DNA from: Pilaira anomala
Taxonomy: Eukaryota > Mucoromycota > Mucoromycetes > Mucorales > Mucoraceae
Direction of reading: 5' to 3'
Length of the DNA stretch: 64,000 nt
NCBI GenBank assembly: GCA_025716855.1
Contig: JAIXMQ010000016.1
Coordinates: 310,001-374,000, forward strand
The position numbers were made by a program, and so were the translations under genes. Shown here piece by piece: positions 834 to 56,103 of this stretch (its first letter is position 1; each line of letters starts with the position of its first letter). The notes beneath the pieces were generated by a model that was not told the DNA's origin, ran no database searches, and worked only from the letters and a program-made list of their open reading frames with translations.

Positions 834-1819
834 TGAGCAGGTGGTGGTTGTGTAGGAGTAGGTTGCTTCATTTGATGAGGCTGAGATTGAGGCTGAGAAG
901 GAGGAGGATAGTAAGGAATCTGACCGGACGATGATGATGAGATATTTGGGGATAATGTAGCTGTTAATTCTTTAATAGGTGAGGACTTGTTTTCATCAGC
1001 CTTTGGATTATCATCCACCAAAAATTGAGCTAAAAAATACAAAATGTTTTAAATAAAAGACTAGAATATGTATATATATATATATATTTTACCTAATTCA
1101 GCAGAAGTAAGTCGACGAGTAGTAGGTGCCTTATACGTTTCTTCCTTTGGTTTGATTACTTCTGTAGCAGTATCGAGTTTCTCAAACGATTTTATCAAGT
1201 CATTTAATTTATCACGAAGTTCAATGAAAGAAGTTTTGATTTCTGAAGTAGTCAATGGTTGATTTGTTGTTGTTGTTGTTGTTGTTGATGATGCTTTATC
1301 GTAAACAGTGACTTTTAATAAACTACTGATAGAGATGGCATGTGTAATATCAACATCATCTAAAAATACGTGTTTAATCAATGACAATGTTATTTTTTTT
1401 TTTTTTTTTTACATCTCCTTTTTACCTAATAAACTGATCATATCGCCCTCTGTTGATGGAGTTAATAATTATGCAAAAAAAAAAAAAGGGCTTTCTAATT
1501 ATTTTACCATTATCCATATATTTTAATATGATATTCTCAGGTTTGGATATTTCTGATTTAAATACACGATACATCATAAGACATAGTCTATTGGTTGACG
1601 TTAATTTTATGGGATATATGTACGTAAAACTTTAAATGTGGAGGGGGGGAACTTACTCGTCGTACGTGGGTACTTGGTTAATAGGAATACGTCGAATTTC
1701 GTTATGAATGCGACCTATTGACTTGAGCGTGAGTTTTATTTTGTGTTTATTACTCTTTTCTTACATTTAATAATAATGTCGCCAGTTACAATCTTGCGAA
1801 GATTAGTATAGTCAGTCAT
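368..1819 (-). CDS. TFG-like PB1 domain protein with P/Q-rich tail
   Basis: Homologue of TFG, which organises COPII at ER exit sites. Six exons (transcript order): 1819-1765, 1714-1657, 1587-1508, 1449-1426, 1359-1093, 1029-368; 381 aa. The first four small exons and the start of the fifth form a PB1 domain: the basic strand IIIKCRIHNEIRRIPI, then YDELCLMMYRVF, then the acidic OPCA part YMDNEGDMISLLDDVDITHAI. A coiled-coil-like stretch follows (about residues 105-150, FIELRDKLNDLIKSFEKL), as in TFG. The rest is low-complexity Pro/Gln/Ser with two poly-Q runs (CAG/CAA mixed) and many PP/QQP blocks, typical of the TFG C-terminus. The start at 1819 opens directly into the PB1 strand. Family assignment rests on domain order and the PB1 match; the tail alone would not be diagnostic. 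Confidence 0.8.
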
Positions 1820-3209
1820 ACTTGGAAAGAACAAAGGAAAAAAAAGAAGAGAAGAGAAGAGAAAAAAAAAAAGGATGTTATTTTATTTTTTTAAAAGTCA
1901 GTGTATGCAGTTTTCCATAAATCATAGTTTTTACTTATAAGTTGTAAGAGACGGTATTACCTAGGATTAGATAGCATCTTTTTTCTTGTCGAATAATGGG
2001 AAGAAAAGTAAATGTGCATTTCTTGTATATTTCACAACAACAGAAAAAGAGAGAAAAAGAGAGAAAAAGAGAGAAAAAATCTTAAAAAATAAAGTGTGTA
2101 CCCATAAATCGTAATATATTCCTGTCAATCATTCAAGTGCATCGATATGATAAGAGTTGCCAAAATGCAAATAAATTAAAACAATCCTGTTTGAATCAAT
2201 AACATCATCACATCCAAAAAAAAAAAAAAAACGCGTCTGAACACGTTGATAAACCATCCAGTGGCCCCATTCTTTGTTCCCAGAGAAGAAAAACACTTGT
2301 TGCAGGCGATCATCGTACAAGATCTTCAAAAGCCGATGGAATTGTTTGGAGTTTAAGAACAATTTAGAATCGTATAGAGAGACCTCTTCTGGTCCCTTTT
2401 TTCAAGAAGGAAGACAAAGTGAAAGCTGCCTTTGACAAGCATGTTCGACCTCTTGGCCATGTTGAAGGCCATTGTGGACACATATCCGGAGAGACACTCA
2501 AAAAAAAAAAAAAAAGCTCAAGCAGCCAAGCAGTAAAAGAAACATTGTTTTAAAATTCATGCTTCCCTTTTTGTACTCCCTAAATACTTTTGTACGATTA
2601 TGGCAGATACGGTAAGAAAGAAACGGCAAATACATCCATCTGTTCAAGGCAAGGAGTGAGTGATGAAGAAGAAAAAAAAAAAAAAAAAAAAAAAGGAGCC
2701 TTCATGCTGAAGATGAAACTCTTGGTTGATCTGTGTGTTATATTTAATCTTTAAGTACTCACTGATATAATAATCTGTCTGAAAATCTTTTAAAAGATGA
2801 TAGCACTTTAAAGAAAGTGAGATGCATATGCAATTATAAATTTTTTTTTAGGTAATACATAAAAACCAACTATTTTTCTTTTTTTTTTTTTTTAAGGCTG
2901 TGTATTATATGTAAATCAAACAAAAAAGCGTGTCTCTCCGTAATATTTGCAAATCATGAAAGAAAGAAAGAGTAAATATATTCTCAAACATAACGCATGA
3001 CGTTACAATTGTATTATGTAATTGGTTGAATCATTTATTTGTTATCTTTTTTTTTTTTTTTCTCTCTTTCTCTCCTTGAGAAAAAAAAAACAAACAAGTT
3101 TATATAAGAATCCCCTTTTATATATATATATATATACACACACATTTATTTCGTGCAAAAAAAAAAAATACATATTACTTCACTACTTTTTTTTTTTTTC
3201 TGCTTTTCA
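1820..3209. other. Intergenic region, divergent promoters of TFG-like and M13 genes
   Basis: About 1.4 kb with long A and T homopolymers and a GAGAAAAA short tandem run near 2050. No intact gene is visible. A short minus-strand open stretch (about 2129-2362) and a plus-strand stretch (about 2390-2510) each resemble parts of a WGR-like fold but are interrupted by homopolymers and stops; see findings. The last 200 bp upstream of the M13 gene are T/C-rich with a TA repeat near 3120-3135. Confidence 0.5.
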
Positions 3210-3550
3210 ATGTCGGACGTTCAGGCACCTTTATTAACAAGAAGAAGATTAGAAGATGAAAGTGGGACCTCGAGTCATAACTTGGTCGATCGTCATGGGA
3301 CGGAAGAAGAAGAATATGAACCAACGGAATATGGAAGTGGAGTCTATCGATACCCAGCTTACCTTCAACCGGGTCATTTCACCTCATTAGAAAAGTTAAT
3401 GTTCTTTTCGAGCTCGATATTATTGATATTGTTGTTTATCTTTGCTGGGTTATATGCAAGAAGTAGTCAACAAGATAATCATCCTCCTTCTTTACCAACT
3501 ACACCACCCGACTTGCCGAAAAATCATACAAAGAAGCAGGTACAATGAGC

Positions 3551-3582
<32 letters not shown>

Positions 3583-5756
3583 TTGCTGTTGTTTGTTGAA
3601 ATTAAAATATATATACATAGGCTACTTGCTTAGAACCAAGTTGTATTATCACTGCAGCCCATATATTACAGGTAAAAAAAAAAATTTACATCTATTTCGT
3701 GATAAAATACGTTTTTAAACTGTATCATTAGGACGTAGATCAGGAATTGGATCCATGTGAAGATTTTTATAGTTATACATGCGATAAATGGATGTCAAAT
3801 CATTTAATACCCGATGTGAAATCTAGAATTGATCGATTGACTGGTATGAGTGAAACGATTCGACGTCGTCTTGATCAAATCTTGAGTCGAGACTACCATG
3901 CGATGGAACACGACACGTCGTCACTACTACTACCAGATCCTAATACAGTATTGGATCGACAACTCTTCGGTAAAATCCAAGACTTTTATCGATCCTGCAT
4001 GAATCAAGATGAAATTGAGAAAAAGAGTATTCAACCGTTGTACCCAATTTTTCGACATATTCGAAAATTGATACCGATTGAAGGTAATGTAAATCAAGAT
4101 GGATTGAATGAAGCAATTCAGTATTTAGGAGATTTGAATATCTGGCCTCTGTTTGAGTTGGTCGTGACACCGGATATGATCAAGAACCCTACGTTACCTA
4201 CACTTTCTTTAGGTCAAGGACAAGTGGGGTTACCAGATTTAGAGTCCTATGATAATCCAGACCTAATGAAAGTGTATATGCAAGCCGTGACAGATATTTT
4301 AGGGTATATATTTAAATTAGATGATCAGAATGAATTTGGATGGAAATCATGGAGTACCATAGCAACCGCACGAAGAATTGTTGAATTTGAAAAAAAGATT
4401 GTACAGGCGTTAGCAGAACAACAAGATCATGCACCAGAAAGATGGAAGTTTGAGGAACTGGAAACTAAAGTGCCTCAGATTTATTGGCATGGATTTATTG
4501 AGCACCTTACCTCCGTGCCAACTCATGTGTTGATCCCGCATGCAACGTTTATTGAACATCTCAGTGACGAAGTCCTGAGTACAACAAATCCACGTACGTT
4601 ACAGATGTATTTTATTTGGAGAACGATTTGGAAATATTTGAATGGATTGAATGAAGCCTTGTTAGAGCCGAAACGTCGATTGGATGCAAAATTGATTGGA
4701 ATTGAAGCGAGAGCAAAACCGGAGCGATGGGAGACATGCATTGAATTGATAGATGCGAGTTCAATGGGGGTACTACTGGGTAGGTACTTTGTGAAGGATC
4801 AAGATGAAGCCATACTTGAATCAAAGAAACAGGTCGAATCGTTATCGAAATCAGTACTTGAGATCATTCGAGATCGTATCCCATCTCTTGGATGGGTACA
4901 TACAGAGGCAACACGTAAAGAAATCATGAATAAATTAAATTCAATTGAATTTCAAATCGGGTTCTCTACAAGTTCGAACCCCAACATTCAATCTGTAATT
5001 TCACTTTCGGAATACTTTCGTCAGGTCTCTATGGATCCAAATGATTTCTTTGGTAACTTGGTTCGGTCAAATCAACATCAAGTCAAACAACAAGTTTGGA
5101 ATGTACTTGAACAGTCCTCCAGGTTGGATAAAGAGGCATGGAAATTGAATGCACAGAGTGTTCAGGTAGTGTATCATAAGGAATTGAATAAGGTGATGAT
5201 ACCCGGTGGATTACTTCAGTTGCCTTTTATTGATTCCATTACGCCTGCTTATTTTTATTATGGTACCATGGGTTGGCTTATCGGACATGAAATTATGGTA
5301 ACTTTTTTTTTTTTTTTTGATTTTTTTAAACCAATCAGGTACATGTCGTCTGACACCACGTGTTTAATTATATATATGTAGCATGGATTTGATAGTATAG
5401 GAAGAAAGTACGATGGTCGTGGACTGTTTGGGCAGTGGTGGGATGATAGGACACAAGAAAATCTAGACTCAGAAAATGAATGCTTGGTCAGACACTATAA
5501 TGAATTTGAGGGAGTGGATGGTCATGCCACGTTAAATAATAATTTTGCGGATGGGGTTGGATTGAGTGTGGTAGAAAGTTTATTAAAGCAAGATGATCAA
5601 GAGGTAAAAAGAATTCCTGGGTTGAATGCGTGGACAAAAGATCAGTTGGGCTATATTCAGTTTGCTCGAATGAAATGTAGTAAGAGTACAAAAGAACACA
5701 AGGTAAAGAAAACTGGAAGAAAAAAAAAAAAAAAAGAGTGATTTTGTGTTACTTAC

Positions 5757-48862: not shown

Positions 48863-49319
48863 AAAAAAAAAATAAAAAAAAAAACCAAGATTCCACTTGC
48901 TATTGTAAATACATATCTCTTTTATCTTCAATCAAAACATAGAATAATAACCAGCATATTTTTAACTTACCCCACAATCACATCAAACTAATAAAATGAT
49001 TAATGGTTCATGATTGCATTCATCCACACTGTGTAGCGTTGATAATGACCTTATAATTGTACAGATTTTTTTTATTTTTTGATTGAAAACTCAAGAAATT
49101 TATGACTGGCCAAATTTGGGCCGTATACCCATATCAGGGGGTCTTTTTGAAAACCGAATTAATTCCAATCAAAATGGAATTAATTCTTTAAAAATTTGAC
49201 GCCCGGTAGGGCGTCAAATTTTTGGGAAATAAGTAATAAAGATTCGACTGTTAAGGATAAGATATGCTTTTATTATTTGTGTTTTTGAGGTTTTTAGGAT
49301 AACCGTAATTGTAACTAAG
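48863..49319. other. Spacer with three nested palindromes next to the exonuclease-transposase pseudogene
   Basis: Contains palindromes at 49108-49122 (GGCCAAATTTGGGCC), 49156-49166/49176-49186 (GAATTAATTCC with its inverse, 9-nt loop) and 49190-49204/49209-49223 (15-bp perfect arms, 4-nt loop GGTA). Their position just past the 3' end of the minus-strand gene suggests an element terminus or transcription-ending structure. Confidence 0.7.
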
Positions 49320-52300
49320 TTAGAGCCTACTATTTAATACATTAGTACAGGGAAAAGTGGCATGATTTCTATTAGTAGGATCATATTTTCCAGGACATGT
49401 GTCAATTTCACAACTTCCGCATTTGTTTACACAATAAATTCGTTTGCTTCTACCTCCACAGCTATCACTTTTACATAGGAAACATGTTTTCTTTTTCTTT
49501 TTTTGCTTTCCTGAATAATTAGGACTTTGTATTTCAAGGCTATGAGCAGGTGCGATGTAGCGAATGCGATAGATATTCGGTGACATTGTTAATACTGGAG
49601 GTAAAGGAGCTAGTGCTACAAAAGTATTGCGAGATGGCCCTGGATTTTCTATTCTCTCTTCCTCTCGAATTGTACTTGCATAAGAAAGATTCTGCGGCGT
49701 AGGTCTTGGAAGGCATTGTATGGTGCCTGCAGATTCAATTCTGGATTCGTTTTGAGTGAGATCTTTAATCCTTTGGATTTTTTGTATGTTCAACATGACA
49801 GAGTCTCCATATTTTTTCCTGTCCTCCATTACATTAAAATAAGATTCTAAATGTCTTGAAGTCTTATAGTAAATCTTCGATTGATCTTTACAAAATCTTG
49901 ACCATAGCTTGGCAAATTCAACGAAATCAGGCTTTTGTGCCTGTCCTCGAAATTTAATTAATGCCTTATGCACAGGATCAGTAATCAAAGTCTGATACAA
50001 GGCTACCTCTTCGTTTGTATGAACTGCAGTGACAGCAAGTTTAGTCTTTTGACACTGTGCTAAGTACTTGTATAAGTAGTCACCAACAGAATATCCCATA
50101 ATTGGAAGATTAGCTGAAGGCAGGGTACTTATTTGTAACAAGTTTTTGATTTCAAAATAGCTTTCTGTTGGCTCAACAGTAGATTCTGCTGGTTCGATAT
50201 CAAATTCCCTCATAACGGAAATTGGCAATGATACGATACCAAAAGTTTCTTTTGTCTGTTCGAATTCGAAAGCGTTTCCAACACGATTACAAAAATAGTT
50301 ATCAACAGGAGTATGACCAATTTTCATTTTCAAGGTATTTATGGACAGACTGAGCCATGGACTATAATGACCTTTGTGAATCTTACCAAATCTGTTTTTG
50401 GATCCAACCTATTTTTTTTTTATAATGGGATTGGTATAAAGTTTTTTTTTTTCTTTTTCTTTCTTTTTTTTTTTTTTTTTTTTTTTTTAAGAAAAAAATA
50501 TGTTATTATATAGAAACTTACATTAATATTATGGTATAATCGGTAATCTGATAGTACCATATTTGTAAGTCTAGGTCCAGCATTATAGGATGCAAACTTT
50601 TGTACTATGTTCATATGAACAGAGCCTTCTACTGAACTTGTTCCTCTGGCACATCTATACATTGTCAAGCCGTTTCTATCCGTACCAATCTCAGTATACA
50701 ATGGAGGTCCCCCTTTCAAGTCAGAGACATGACCCAGACGAATTTCTTCTAATACAGCAGCAGCATCTTTCCTAGCATCTTCATCGAAGAGGGGTCTTCC
50801 TGTTTTAATACAAATGGAGTCCCCGTAGCTTTTAAAAAGCTCATCGACTAAAGGATAGAGCTCTTCTGCAGGTGGGATGTATATTTTAACCCTTTTGAAG
50901 ACGTACTCAGGATCCGAAAGAAGCTTTGTGTTCCAATCTATACCCATAGAAACCAGATACTCTTCAACTTTCTTTTTGTCATCTGGATCCACCACAAACA
51001 GAGCATCTCTAAAACGTCTCATAAAATCTTTCGCCATACCATGCTTTAGCGAAATTTTGATCATTTGCATGACATGAAAAGCGTCTTTCAAGATACGAGA
51101 AGGAACAGTGGTTCTATCAGTAACCATATTGCTATTATTAGTGGGCTGATTGACCTCAGATTCTCTTGCAGAGGCTTCTTTGTCCTGAACATAAAAACTC
51201 TCAGAAGCTGTTTTCAAACATTTATTGTTTATCAGCGCAACAAAAGGGACTTCACCAAATGACTCAAGGGTTTTTGTCTCATCGACAGTGGCATAACAGT
51301 CCATCAACATACCTGGAATTCAAACATCGATGACTTTTACCGCACTCTTCTTTGATTTTATAGCATCTTCGGGATCAATATTTGGAAGTTTTGAAAAATC
51401 TTCAATGTAACCATAGGCCGAAGGCATCTGTCTGTTTGATGTTGATTTGGTAAATACTGCTACAAATGTACCAATATTTACTTTTCCATGAATAACGGCT
51501 TGATTGACGGTAGGAAGACAAATTACAGCATTCAAAATTTCAAGAGAAATCCAAGCATCTATTGCTGCATATTTTATTTGCTCGCTTGTCAAGAAAGGTG
51601 CTTCCCAATTACCGCATCTGATGATGGGTATTTTTGGAAGATATCTAGAAAGCACACGGCCGCAAATCTGGTCTAAACGAAGGCCACTTCTACTTATGAT
51701 GCCTTTTTGATAACAAATTGCACCAACGTCGAGCTTCCCAGATGTCTCAGGAACTTTAATACTAAAATGTCCTTTTAGTCTAGTAAAGTCGCCTGCAATG
51801 TTTTTACCGACTTTGACAATTTCTTCAGAACCAATGACATCAGCAAGATTTTCAGGGAAGGTAGAAACATCGAAAAAGTGAACTCTAAAAAGATAGATAT
51901 TTTTTTTATGACAGATTTGAATCAGGGATATACGGCTGGATGGTATCCATTCACAATCAAAACCAAGGTAAGTTTGATTAGTGGCTGCATCATCGAGAAT
52001 AATTTGACATACTCTGTTGATGTCATTAGCCACAGAATACACATCAACTTGTATGTCTTCTGGAAGCATAACTTCAGGTAACAAATTTAATTGCTGTTCT
52101 TGATCACTTTCTTTGCTTCTTCCACCCTTCCTTTTCTTTTCTACCTCTTTTACATCTTTACAAAGAGAAGGAATAACTTCTTTCAAAAAGGCTTGATCGC
52201 CAACGACATTATCCGTATAAAATAACTCAGGAGAAGGCATCCCTAATCTATGATAAGTATTCATCATTTCATTAAACTGAGGTGCCAAGTTTTCCATTTT

Positions 52301-53853
52301 TTTACAATGGGAAAGCACCATAAGTCTAATTTCCTCATATTCATTAAGCATTGTGTACAAGCAAGAGAAAGTACTGACACCGTTGATCTTGGCCATATGA
52401 TCTATGATCTTGAATGAATGGTCACCTTTAAGGATGATGCCATCCAGCATTGAAATAAGTTGATCAATTAATGGAGAAAGTTTGGAGATTATACAACTGT
52501 AAACATAGCTTAGATAGTTAGTCGAAGTACTAAACCCATTGTAAGTTGATCTATCATCGTACTTTGGAAATTCAGCAGGCGGACGTACGTTACATACTAC
52601 TATTACTGAAAAAAGAAAGAAGATTGGGGTTGGCTCTTCGGTTATCAAGAGCAATATAGTATTGAAGCTGCAGCTCATCGTATCTTTCAGTATGCATTAT
52701 ACGAAGAATCTTAGACATACGATGAGGACCGATTCCGTGTTGAAAGGCGGGTCTCATCAATTTTATCATACTTTCGATACACCAGATTTATGAGTGAGGA
52801 CTGCTGGGAATTCTGCCTGCAAGTCCAGATTGATCTGCTTCATGAAGCCATCATGATATCCATTGAAAAAATGCTTCTTGCTACCCTTACAGACGTAGCG
52901 CATTGTCATGAGATAAAACGAACTTAAATTCAAAAAAAAAAATGTGAAAAGATGCTTATAACTCAATAACACTAAAACTTACTCAAATAAATCAACAACC
53001 CTTCTAGCTCTTGGATTGTTACAATGTCCTTTCACTTCAATATCACTCTTACAATAAGGACACTTAAGATTACTTTGTAATTTATGAGGAATCCAAATAA
53101 ACACTCTAGGAATACACAAGGAGTTTGGGTTGATGGTACTCTCTTGCAAAACAAAATAAGCTGAAGTCGGATAAATCCAAAAGTTTTTTTTTTGAGGAAC
53201 TGGTCAGATATTTCCCCTTCTCTCATCTTTCTCTGAATCTCGGCAAGATATTTGTCTATTACACTGCCCTCGGGGACAGATCCAACCTCAGAGTCTATTT
53301 GTTGGAATTCATTTTCATTTAATTCAACACTCTCAGCTTCTTCAATGTCGTTATTCTCTATCTCTTCAACTTCATCACTCTCTAATTGCTGAGTCTCTTT
53401 ATCGTCCTGATGAATTGCGGATACGAAATTGTTTTCAGGTATAACAATGTCAGCTTCCTCAGACTGCTGCTCTAAAACATTTGCTTCTTCAATTATAGTA
53501 TTAGTAACAGTATTCAAGCTTAACACTTGTTCATTAGCAGTTTCTGTCAAAGTGTCCTGGCTTAAACGAATAAAATACTGTAACTGTTCATCAGTAAGAG
53601 GATCAGTTTGAGTTTCTACTGTACAGGTTTTAGCCTATTGTAACGTTAGTTCCAGTTTAAATGCACATGTATGGTCCTTTAGAATCTTACAGGTAAAACA
53701 GGTGAAGTATTAACGAGGAACGTATCTAAAAAAGACTGATTCTCGATCTGGTGTTTTTTTTCGGCCAGCTGAATGACCTTCTCGGTTTTTTGTTCCTTCG
53801 GGTCTTCCTCTCTTCCTGTTCCCATTAGGGTTTGTAGAGTTAGCACTGCTCAT
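49320..53853 (-). pseudogene. Degenerate AT-hook / DUF6729-like / DEDDy exonuclease / transposase-like fusion gene
   Basis: Minus-strand gene remnant. N-terminus: AT-hook peptide RKRGRPEGTKN (from 53853) overlaps another frame starting at 53825 that splices cleanly (53691|53634) into an acidic region. A Cys-containing DUF6729-like region follows (about 53185-52770: FWIYPTSAYFVLQ, LKCPYCKSDIEVKGHCNNPR, MRYVCKGSK). A WRN-type DEDDy exonuclease spans about 52000-51480: LGFDCEW, VGKNIAGDFTRL, YAAIDAW. A transposase-like domain spans 51319-50522: FHVMQMIKISLKHGMAKDFM, RGTSSVEGSVH. After an intron (50521-50409) it continues to 49320 (KNRFGKIHKGHYSPWL), ending in a Cys-rich tail (CFLCKSDSCGG, CVNKCGSCEIDTCPG). 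Lesions: frame breaks near 53190, 52768 and 52600 and an in-frame TGA at 51320-51322. The catalytic exonuclease residues are intact. Confidence 0.7.
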
Positions 53854-54156
53854 TTAAAGGTTTTTTTTTATATTATTGTTAAGAGCTGTCTAGGGAAAGT
53901 TGAGCCCGAACACGAATTAAAAAAAAAGGCTCGCAAGTGATCTAACCATTTTGGGTTATACAAAATGAGAGCTTTTGGTTGGCCTGTTATAGACTTTTAA
54001 AGCGATTTTATTGGATAAAGTCTCCCCTGCCACAGGCTCACCGTCCAAATTTGATTTATATTTTAGAAAACCTTAGTTTATTTGTTTCTGTATCTTTTTC
54101 TTTAATTTTTTTTTTTTACTCTTTTGATTCATTTCTATATACACGCAATAAGAAAT
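53854..54156. other. Intergenic region, divergent start of exonuclease-transposase remnant and CSN2
   Basis: About 300 bp with T-rich leaders. No gene. It shows no clear inverted match to the palindromes at 49.1-49.2 kb. Confidence 0.4.
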
Positions 54157-56103
54157 ATGAGTGACGACGACGACTTTATGCTTGAAGACGAGGAGGAGGT
54201 TTGTCTTTCAATTTTGTGTTGTTTGACACGTACTATTACTGATTAAAAAAAAAAAGGACTATGATTTTGACTATGAAGATGACGAAGAAGAAGAGCCAGA
54301 CGTAGACTTGGAAAACAAGTACTATAATGCTAAAGGTACGTCTGAGGTTGTTTTCTTTTCATTATTTACTTTATATTAATGATAAAATATAGCTAGAAAA
54401 GAAGAAGATCCCAAAGAAGCCTTATTAGAGTTTCAACGTGTAGTTGATACAGAAGAAACTAAAGGAGACTGGTAAAATAAAAAAGAGAAACTCCTCCCCT
54501 CCTCTTTTTTTTTTTCTTAACTTATATTATTATTTTGAAGGGGATTTAAGTCATTGAAACAAATGATCAAGATATCATTTCAACAAAACAACTTTGACGA
54601 CACATTAAAATACTACCGCGAATTATTAACGTACATCAAATCGGCCGTGACTCGAAACTATAGCGAAAAGAGTATTAATAATATATTGGATAATGTATCA
54701 TCAGCGGATAATATGGTGTTTATGGAAAAGTTTTATGAGATTACGATGGAGTCTTTAGCCGAGACAAAGAATGAAAGACTTTGGGTGAAGACAAATTTGA
54801 AATTAGCTAAGCTTTGGTTGGATAGAAAGGAATATGGTAGATTGAATAAGATCTTGAAGCAACTTCATGCAGCTTGTCAAAAGGATGATGGAACGGATGA
54901 TCAGAGAAAGGGTACACATTTGTTGGAAGTGCTTGCTTTAGAAATTCAAATGTATACGGAAACGAAAAACAATAAGAAATTAAAGGTAAACGAGTGCGTA
55001 CGAAGAAAAAAAAAAAAACTGTATTATTTCCTGTATTCATTGTTTTATTTTGCATAATAGGAACTATATCAACAATGTCTTTCTGTAAAATCAGCTATTC
55101 CTCATCCTCGTATTATGGGTGTGATTCGTGAATGTGGTGGCAAAATGCATATGAGTGAAAGTAAAGATTGAGTAATTTATCTTCGAATGAATCATCTTAT
55201 ATGTATCTTTTTTTACATTAGAACAATGGGACGATGCTCAAACTGATTTCTTTGAATCTTTCAAAAACTACGATGAAGCAGGTAGCCCTCAACGTATTCA
55301 AGTATTAAAGTAAAGTTTAGCATCTGAGGGTTATATCTATCAATTATTAACCTATATGTATACATTAGGTATCTTGTACTTGCCAACATGTTGACCGAAA
55401 GTCAAATTAACCCATTTGATTCTCAAGAAACCAAACCGTAAGTTAATTCTTTTTTTTTTTTATTAATAAGCATGTAAAGCTCATATTTTTTATGTAAAGG
55501 TACAAGAATGATAAGGAAATTGAGGCCATGACAAATTTAGTCAGTGCTTATCAAAAGAAAGAAATTAACGAATTCGAGCATATATTAAAAGGTAAAAATA
55601 AATCATAGTGTATCAAGTGAAGAATAATCATATATATTACTTTTTTTTTTTAGTCAATCAAAAATCGATTATGGGGGATCCTTTTATTCGAACTTACATT
55701 GATGATGTATTAAGAAATATTCGTACTCAAGTCTTGATCAAGTTGATTAAACCTTACACGAGTATAGAAATCTCATTTATTTCCAAAGTAAGTTTCTTTA
55801 TAAATTATACATGTTTTTCAATTCTTAACAATGATATAGCAATTAAATATACCTACTGAAGATGTGGAAGAACTTTTGGTGGGCTTAATTTTGGATGAAA
55901 GAATTTCAGGACAAATTGATCAAGTACATAATCGACTGGTATTAGAGAGAAGGTAAAAGGAGATAGATACAAACATATATAACAAACGCATTACTTAAAA
56001 CCTCGTTTATAGATCGACAGATGCATACAAATATGAAGCATTGGATGCTTGGTCTAACAATGTATCCAATTTATGTAAAACTGTGATTGGAAAAGCAACA
56101 TAA
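54157..56103 (+). CDS. CSN2: COP9 signalosome complex subunit 2
   Basis: PCI-domain subunit of the cullin deneddylase. Eleven exons: 54157-54198, 54257-54335, 54393-54471, 54541-54985, 55061-55160, 55222-55309, 55369-55437, 55500-55591, 55654-55787, 55840-55952, 56013-56103; 443 aa, the same length as animal CSN2. The acidic N-terminus [20 protein letters not shown] is followed by [60 protein letters not shown] and, in the PCI/winged-helix part, [40 protein letters not shown]. Every junction is in phase and matches family continuity. Intron 1 has an A-rich rather than pyrimidine-rich 3' end. Confidence 0.95.

Follow-up and report, generated by a model that had tools for sequence, protein, structure and literature searches.

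The window analysed here is a stretch of 64,000 nucleotides from the fungus Pilaira anomala, part of a contig that we call C68. It carries a minus-strand gene within what is, leaving aside the task of its exonuclease, very probably a DDE transposon related to Dada, with an exonuclease nested in the transposase (Table 1). A first-pass annotation had given the locus as 49320..53853; a minus-strand locus is indeed present, but the true feature is larger and has the same eight bases on both sides. The parts it named, an AT-hook, a DUF6729-like region, a DEDDy exonuclease, a segment with FHVMQMI and RGTSSVEG and a cysteine-rich tail, lie on this strand in the order given.

Profile searches identify two of these parts. 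The DUF6729-like region matches PF20499 at 70.5 bits against a cut-off of 27, the query being a read-through piece with X placed at frame breaks. The exonuclease matches PF01612 (E 4.8e-13) and the PDB sequences EXD2 and WRN; Nibbler, RNase D and RRP6 are also among its matches, and both its sequence and its fold are closest to the DNA exonuclease WRN. Motif positions and the domain match place it between the second catalytic aspartate (D2) and the DxxH motif of the transposase: in the read-through protein D2 is residue 511, FDCEW lies at about 593, DxxH at 887 and the catalytic glutamate (E) at 1039. The spacing is 70 from the first aspartate (D1) to D2 and 152 from DxxH to E. Both enzymes of the fusion proposed earlier are present, but the exonuclease is nested inside the transposase core, not alongside it. 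Likewise, the predicted structure assigns the TSSVEG domain to a transposase of RNase-H fold, as suspected; more than a late part of that transposase is present, D1 and D2 preceding the exonuclease. The Glu of TSSVEG is by its position the third catalytic acid.

The RNase-H fold of this domain is supported by a predicted structure. With the whole model of homologue P0002, the best 50 structure matches listed per search were all exonuclease-type chains; the core was therefore examined with P0017, a homologue free of the exonuclease. Its best structural match is the IS256-family transposase ISCth4 (PDB 6xg8, 6xgw and 6xgx), with 11-12% identity in the alignments. The order and motifs of the protein, set on this modelled fold, predict an exonuclease inserted after strand 4 and before strand 5 of the core. 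The likeness to IS256 is a fold match only: no transposase family was matched in Pfam, nor in the PDB by profile search, and membership of hAT, P, MULE or KDZ, checked through Pfam only, gave no family match.

The N-terminal cysteine region of the window copy reads C-x2-C-x33-C. The expected fourth site holds no Cys, with a His soon after; the fourth Cys is kept in other homologues, e.g. P0016, P0019 and P0031. The gene of the window copy is not one open frame: three putative GT-AG introns separate its exons and, as read from the sequence, five further interruptions break it, including a TGA in frame at 51320-51322.

Table 1 Features of the element, in positions of the window.
Feature	Position	Strand	Remarks
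Whole transposon	49119..54045	minus (gene strand)	4,927 bp; edges common to other copies
Target-site duplication, left copy	49111..49118	none	CAAATTTG
Target-site duplication, right copy	54046..54053	none	CAAATTTG
Left end, imperfect inverted repeat	49119..49140	plus	CAGGGG at positions 17-22; 13/22 positions match other end
Right end, imperfect inverted repeat	54024..54045	minus	
Exon 1 with AT-hook RKRGRP (53800-53817)	53691..53853	minus	putative splice site
Exon 2: acidic linker and DUF6729 start with CPYC (53051-53062)	52983..53634	minus	putative splice sites; internal frame break
Exon 3: DUF6729 remainder, D1, D2, exonuclease, DxxH, E	50522..52922	minus	putative splice sites; internal frame break
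D1, first catalytic Asp (GDHSFK)	52421..52423	minus	upstream of exonuclease
D2, second catalytic Asp (FYTDN)	52211..52213	minus	upstream of exonuclease
WRN-type DEDDy 3'-5' exonuclease core	51527..51973	minus	FDCEW 51947-51961, Asp 51788-51790, YAAIDA 51554-51571; PF01612, PDB sequence matches, fold match of homologue P0002
DxxH motif (DAFH)	51074..51085	minus	
RGTSSVEG	50624..50647	minus	catalytic Glu 50627-50629
Exon 4: C-terminal part, seven-Cys tail (49395-49484), stop	49320..50408	minus	

The genome searched comprises 34,252,262 bases in 225 contigs. A 299-residue protein segment matches 17 times, at 11 loci counting the window; the weakest two of the ten other loci have E-values of 4.7e-4 and 9.9e-4. 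At four of these ten (L024-L027) no DNA match survived the filter, and they are omitted from the copy descriptions. The copy on contig C191 is full length and 99.7% identical in DNA to the window copy, and one on C171 is 99.9% identical over 2.3 kb, up to the contig end. The C121 copy (96.5-97.4%) is rearranged; the C204 and C80 copies (82-89%) are internally deleted, with 3,839 and 3,868 bp between their ends. Farther along C171 lies an older copy (68-72%), and single-end fragments occur on C198, C112 and C189.

The window and C191 copies differ by a single plain substitution, by one base in the length of a GG, and otherwise by the lengths of A or T runs and of one A-rich intron stretch. This near-absence of differences implies that the spread was recent: the window copy is young, and its frame is broken. 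At three of the five frame breaks the C191 copy is identical to it and the C121 copy has another reading. This means either that an enzyme from another copy moved broken copies or that the same assembly errors were repeated. No copy open over the whole gene is found among those read, that of C171 being cut by the contig end and that of C121 rearranged.

Five places in the genome carry the left-end pattern and five the right-end pattern; the reversed patterns, used as controls, occur nowhere. Four copies (window, C80, C191 and C204) have both ends. Identical 8-bp flanks enclose the window copy (CAAATTTG) and the C80 copy (GTATTTTT); those of C191 and C204 are not identical. The left flank on C171 and the right flank on C191 are the same 8-mer, AGAACAAT, which suggests a single insertion split by the assembly or an exchange between copies. 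No two edge bases, on either side, are common to all three 8-mers. The similarity of the inverted ends (Table 1) is equalled in 11 of 10,000 shuffles of both 22-mers, a simple shuffle that keeps base composition but not neighbours. A search for terminal repeats and target-site duplications, advised in the first-pass annotation, has thus yielded imperfect inverted ends and 8-bp duplications at the window and C80 and across C171/C191. Several copies, common ends and 8-bp flanking duplications bear out the mobile element proposed there. Single-copy, syntenic homologues lacking an RNase-H fold, named in advance as the pattern that would speak against a transposase, are not what we found.

Just inside the left end lie two adjacent hairpins, 49190-49223 (perfect 15-bp stem) and 49156-49186 (12-bp stem), a candidate enzyme-binding or regulatory site. 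The former is one of two such sites in the window (stem at least 13, loop 3-10, at least four G/C), the second being a T/A run. A match to this left hairpin region, in both orientations, is found at C224:2083-2146 (L037), with no other part of the element among the matches reported on that contig.

We collected 42 homologous proteins at E <= 0.001, the closest from Mucor and other Mucorales. Uncharacterised proteins with the same domains occur in Mucor saturninus, Helicostylum pulchrum, Phascolomyces, Heliocybe and others, reaching 53-55% identity with the query region. They are listed as 'hypothetical protein' or '3'-5' exonuclease', and among the names shown none says transposase. Many of the 42 homologues are fragments: precomputed Pfam annotation gives PF01612 in 34 and PF20499 in 29, a strict pattern scan finds D2, exonuclease motif I, DxxH and E in that order in 17, and the seven-Cys tail of the window copy recurs in nine, with a CCHC tail in one (P0041), many of the 42 lacking that end. 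The recurrence of the ordered motifs in these proteins, and of the 299-residue segment elsewhere in the genome, exceeds what chance would give. Alignment A2 holds 38 of them (P0024, P0038, P0041 and P0042 omitted), and gapped sequences are uncounted per site. In it D1 is kept in 35/36, D2 in 36/37, the D and H of DxxH each in 36/38 and E in 32/34; the exonuclease acids are kept in 33/35 to 35/36 and its Tyr in 34/35. The exonuclease is absent in P0041 and in P0017, P0024 and P0026, all three from Apophysomyces, where the absence is either real or due to an exonuclease predicted as intron. Two unusual proteins stand out. P0024 (Apophysomyces sp. BC1021, 1,437 residues) joins the transposase-like part to SH3-domain Pfam matches (PF14604, PF00018 and PF07653), either a gene-model fusion or an insertion beside a host gene. 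P0038 (2,367 residues) combines DUF6729, exonuclease and PF02338, presumably an OTU-type protease, as if the element had acquired a protease.

When the window copy is compared with the C80/C204 subfamily, the ratio of nonsynonymous to synonymous substitution rates (dN/dS) is 0.10-0.11 in the part with D1, D2 and the exonuclease (191 codons), 0.17 from DxxH to E (264 codons) and 0.17-0.18 over the 346-357 codons of the C-terminal part. For the close C121 copy the ratio is 0.45-0.75, from few changes. Judged by these codons, both enzymes were under selection while the subfamilies diverged. Such amino-acid-conserving selection would suit a host gene domesticated for genome defence, the alternative offered by the annotation, but it is expected of an active transposon too. 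Several copies at unrelated places with common ends and flanking duplications, one of them nearly identical and full length, others internally deleted, together with the broken frame of the window copy, make domestication of this locus highly improbable.

The system is not undescribed, as had been supposed. The papers cited below by PMC number were available in part, and what is said of them refers to those parts. In 2013 Kojima and Jurka printed the same architecture, a DDE transposase whose exonuclease follows the second D and precedes DxxH, for Dada of Laccaria bicolor and Ectocarpus siliculosus, naming Dada-1_LB, Dada-2_LB and Dada-1_ES (PMC3706591). Our comparison with Dada uses the landmarks printed there. 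Like these families, the window element has a DDE core with DxxH, a nested exonuclease and introns; Dada lengths in print are 4,666-10,979 bp, and its own falls among them. In print the Dada superfamily has a DDE triad in which D1 and D2 lie about 68 residues apart and a DxxH follows D2 (PMC3706591); here the distance is 70 and the DxxH is present.

A protein of the cichlid Archocentrus centrarchus, P0041 (E 9.6e-12; DUF6729 at 296.6 bits), appears by its landmarks to bridge the window element to Dada. Its CCCC gaps of 4/31/2, D1-D2 of 71, D2-E of 191 and tail gaps of 2/9/8 fit Dada-U6_DR, for which the printed positions give CCCC 4/34/2, D1-D2 68, D2-E 176 and tail 2/9/8 (PMC3706591); its DxxH-E distance is 166. 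DUF6729, the D1-D2 distance, DxxH and an S/T-x-x-E motif are common to the window element and these fish Dada, and the CCCC-type zinc finger region may be as well. P0041 has a CCHC tail (2/9/8) and no exonuclease, whereas the window element has the exonuclease and a seven-Cys tail. Its CAGGGG, set back from the end, resembles the sub-terminal, not terminal, inverted repeats of Dada-U6 (PMC3706591).

Three printed features weigh against plain membership of Dada (PMC3706591). Dada duplications are 6-7 bp, against 8 bp here; the printed tail is CCHC with gaps 2/9/8, against seven cysteines; and definable Dada termini lie in small RNA genes, none of which was found here. No tRNA was detected in the window, in eight loci or in six joined or single flanks, and no Rfam family reached its gathering score in the window. 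Three Rfam matches in the eight loci were dismissed as unrelated and below gathering scores; the joined flanks lay outside the Rfam search. Because of the architecture and the P0041 bridge, set against these three differences, we conclude that the element functions as Dada does and is most likely related to it, placed either inside that superfamily or next to it. We regard as unlikely a lineage sister to Dada that is no longer tied to small RNA genes and inserts freely, with 8-bp duplications like those of IS256, in which the nested exonuclease would take over donor-end processing otherwise left to the host and transposition may be copy-out/paste-in in a eukaryote.

Other known systems are farther away. 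More than 120 fish Dada families have been characterised in a paper whose available text does not contain the word 'exonuclease' (PMC8869645), and one Dada family is listed in Ectocarpus (PMC12477816). KolobokD, a eukaryotic DDE transposon with a 3'-5' exonuclease, has one of DEDDh type and 4-bp TTAA duplications (PMC9587614), unlike the DEDDy exonuclease and 8-bp duplications here, none of them TTAA. ISCth4 shares the acid order with C/DxxH, a helical insertion before the Glu and 8-bp A/T-rich duplications (PMC7780238), but is bacterial, about 400 residues long and without exonuclease or DUF6729.

In the mechanism we propose, the AT-hook, DUF6729 and Cys-rich tail would bind the element ends. 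The RNase-H-fold core, whose two Asp precede the exonuclease and whose Glu follows it, would cut at the 3' ends and attach these to target DNA at positions staggered by 8 bp; the duplication is observed, the chemistry that of the DDE family. The same element could instead move by copy-out/paste-in like ISCth4, one end attacking the other so that a circle forms and the donor site stays filled; the exonuclease would then edit 3' ends where the circle is joined. This is how ISCth4, the best structural match, moves, with A/T-rich 8-bp duplications (PMC7780238), to be compared with CAAATTTG, GTATTTTT and AGAACAAT; but a likeness in fold does not settle which pathway is used, and neither circle junctions nor tandem copies were seen. 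The hAT, P and MuDR transposons are classed as cut-and-paste, which we count against copy-out. These three are the eukaryotic relatives named for Dada (PMC3706591). On balance copy-out/paste-in seems rather unlikely.

For the nested enzyme, 3'-end processing was proposed with the first Dada examples (PMC3706591). A 3'-5' exonuclease would not remove the 5' overhangs left after strand transfer; candidate substrates are 3' ends of the cut donor flanks or misplaced 3' ends of the element. The WRN-type exonuclease would trim 3' ends exposed during excision and repair, foremost the cut flanking donor ends, so that simple resealing of the donor site would be prevented. We assign this task to the cut donor flanks tentatively. 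Alternatively, the exonuclease might act on RNA or DNA of the host silencing or repair machinery (e.g. small-RNA trimming of MUT-7/Nibbler type), protecting the transposon with no role in cutting. RNA-trimming members of its family and its absence from P0017, P0024, P0026 and P0041 would agree with this, but its closeness to WRN and its place beside the catalytic strands, between D2 and DxxH, make such a role quite unlikely. The transposon itself may move in trans, with enzyme supplied by another copy, because near-identical copies share frame breaks and internally deleted copies keep both ends.

The element lies between a DEAD-box helicase gene and, on the other side, a plus-strand gene with its ATG at 54157-54159, which resembles COP9 signalosome subunit 2; a piece of this gene has no Pfam family match. 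Elsewhere in the genome, a second, diverged family with the same architecture is seen at L055 (C101:335800-343300, matches at about 1654-5066), its best pieces 58-59% identical to the Parasitella protein P0019. Its end-like sequences share GGC and CATATC-N-GGGGG with the window element; its flanks are A runs, which obscure any duplication there. About 290 bp, 74-77% similar to its 5' part, recur at L056, L057 (reversed) and L058, near base 100 of each; the L055 end is not present at these three, and no boundary was obtained.

A transposase with an exonuclease inside its active domain has been known since 2013; what is new are the ends, the 8-bp duplication and an apparently free choice of target. 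The element supplies ends, duplication length and target sites for an exonuclease-carrying transposon of the Dada type, data given in PMC3706591 only for families in small RNA genes, and our literature search found no further paper on this type. It also connects Dada-type transposases with DUF6729, a Pfam domain of unknown function on which the search found no paper, and thereby allows a name for proteins that are listed as hypothetical or as '3'-5' exonuclease'. With a nuclease placed within the transposase fold, the fate of the donor end becomes testable with one protein.
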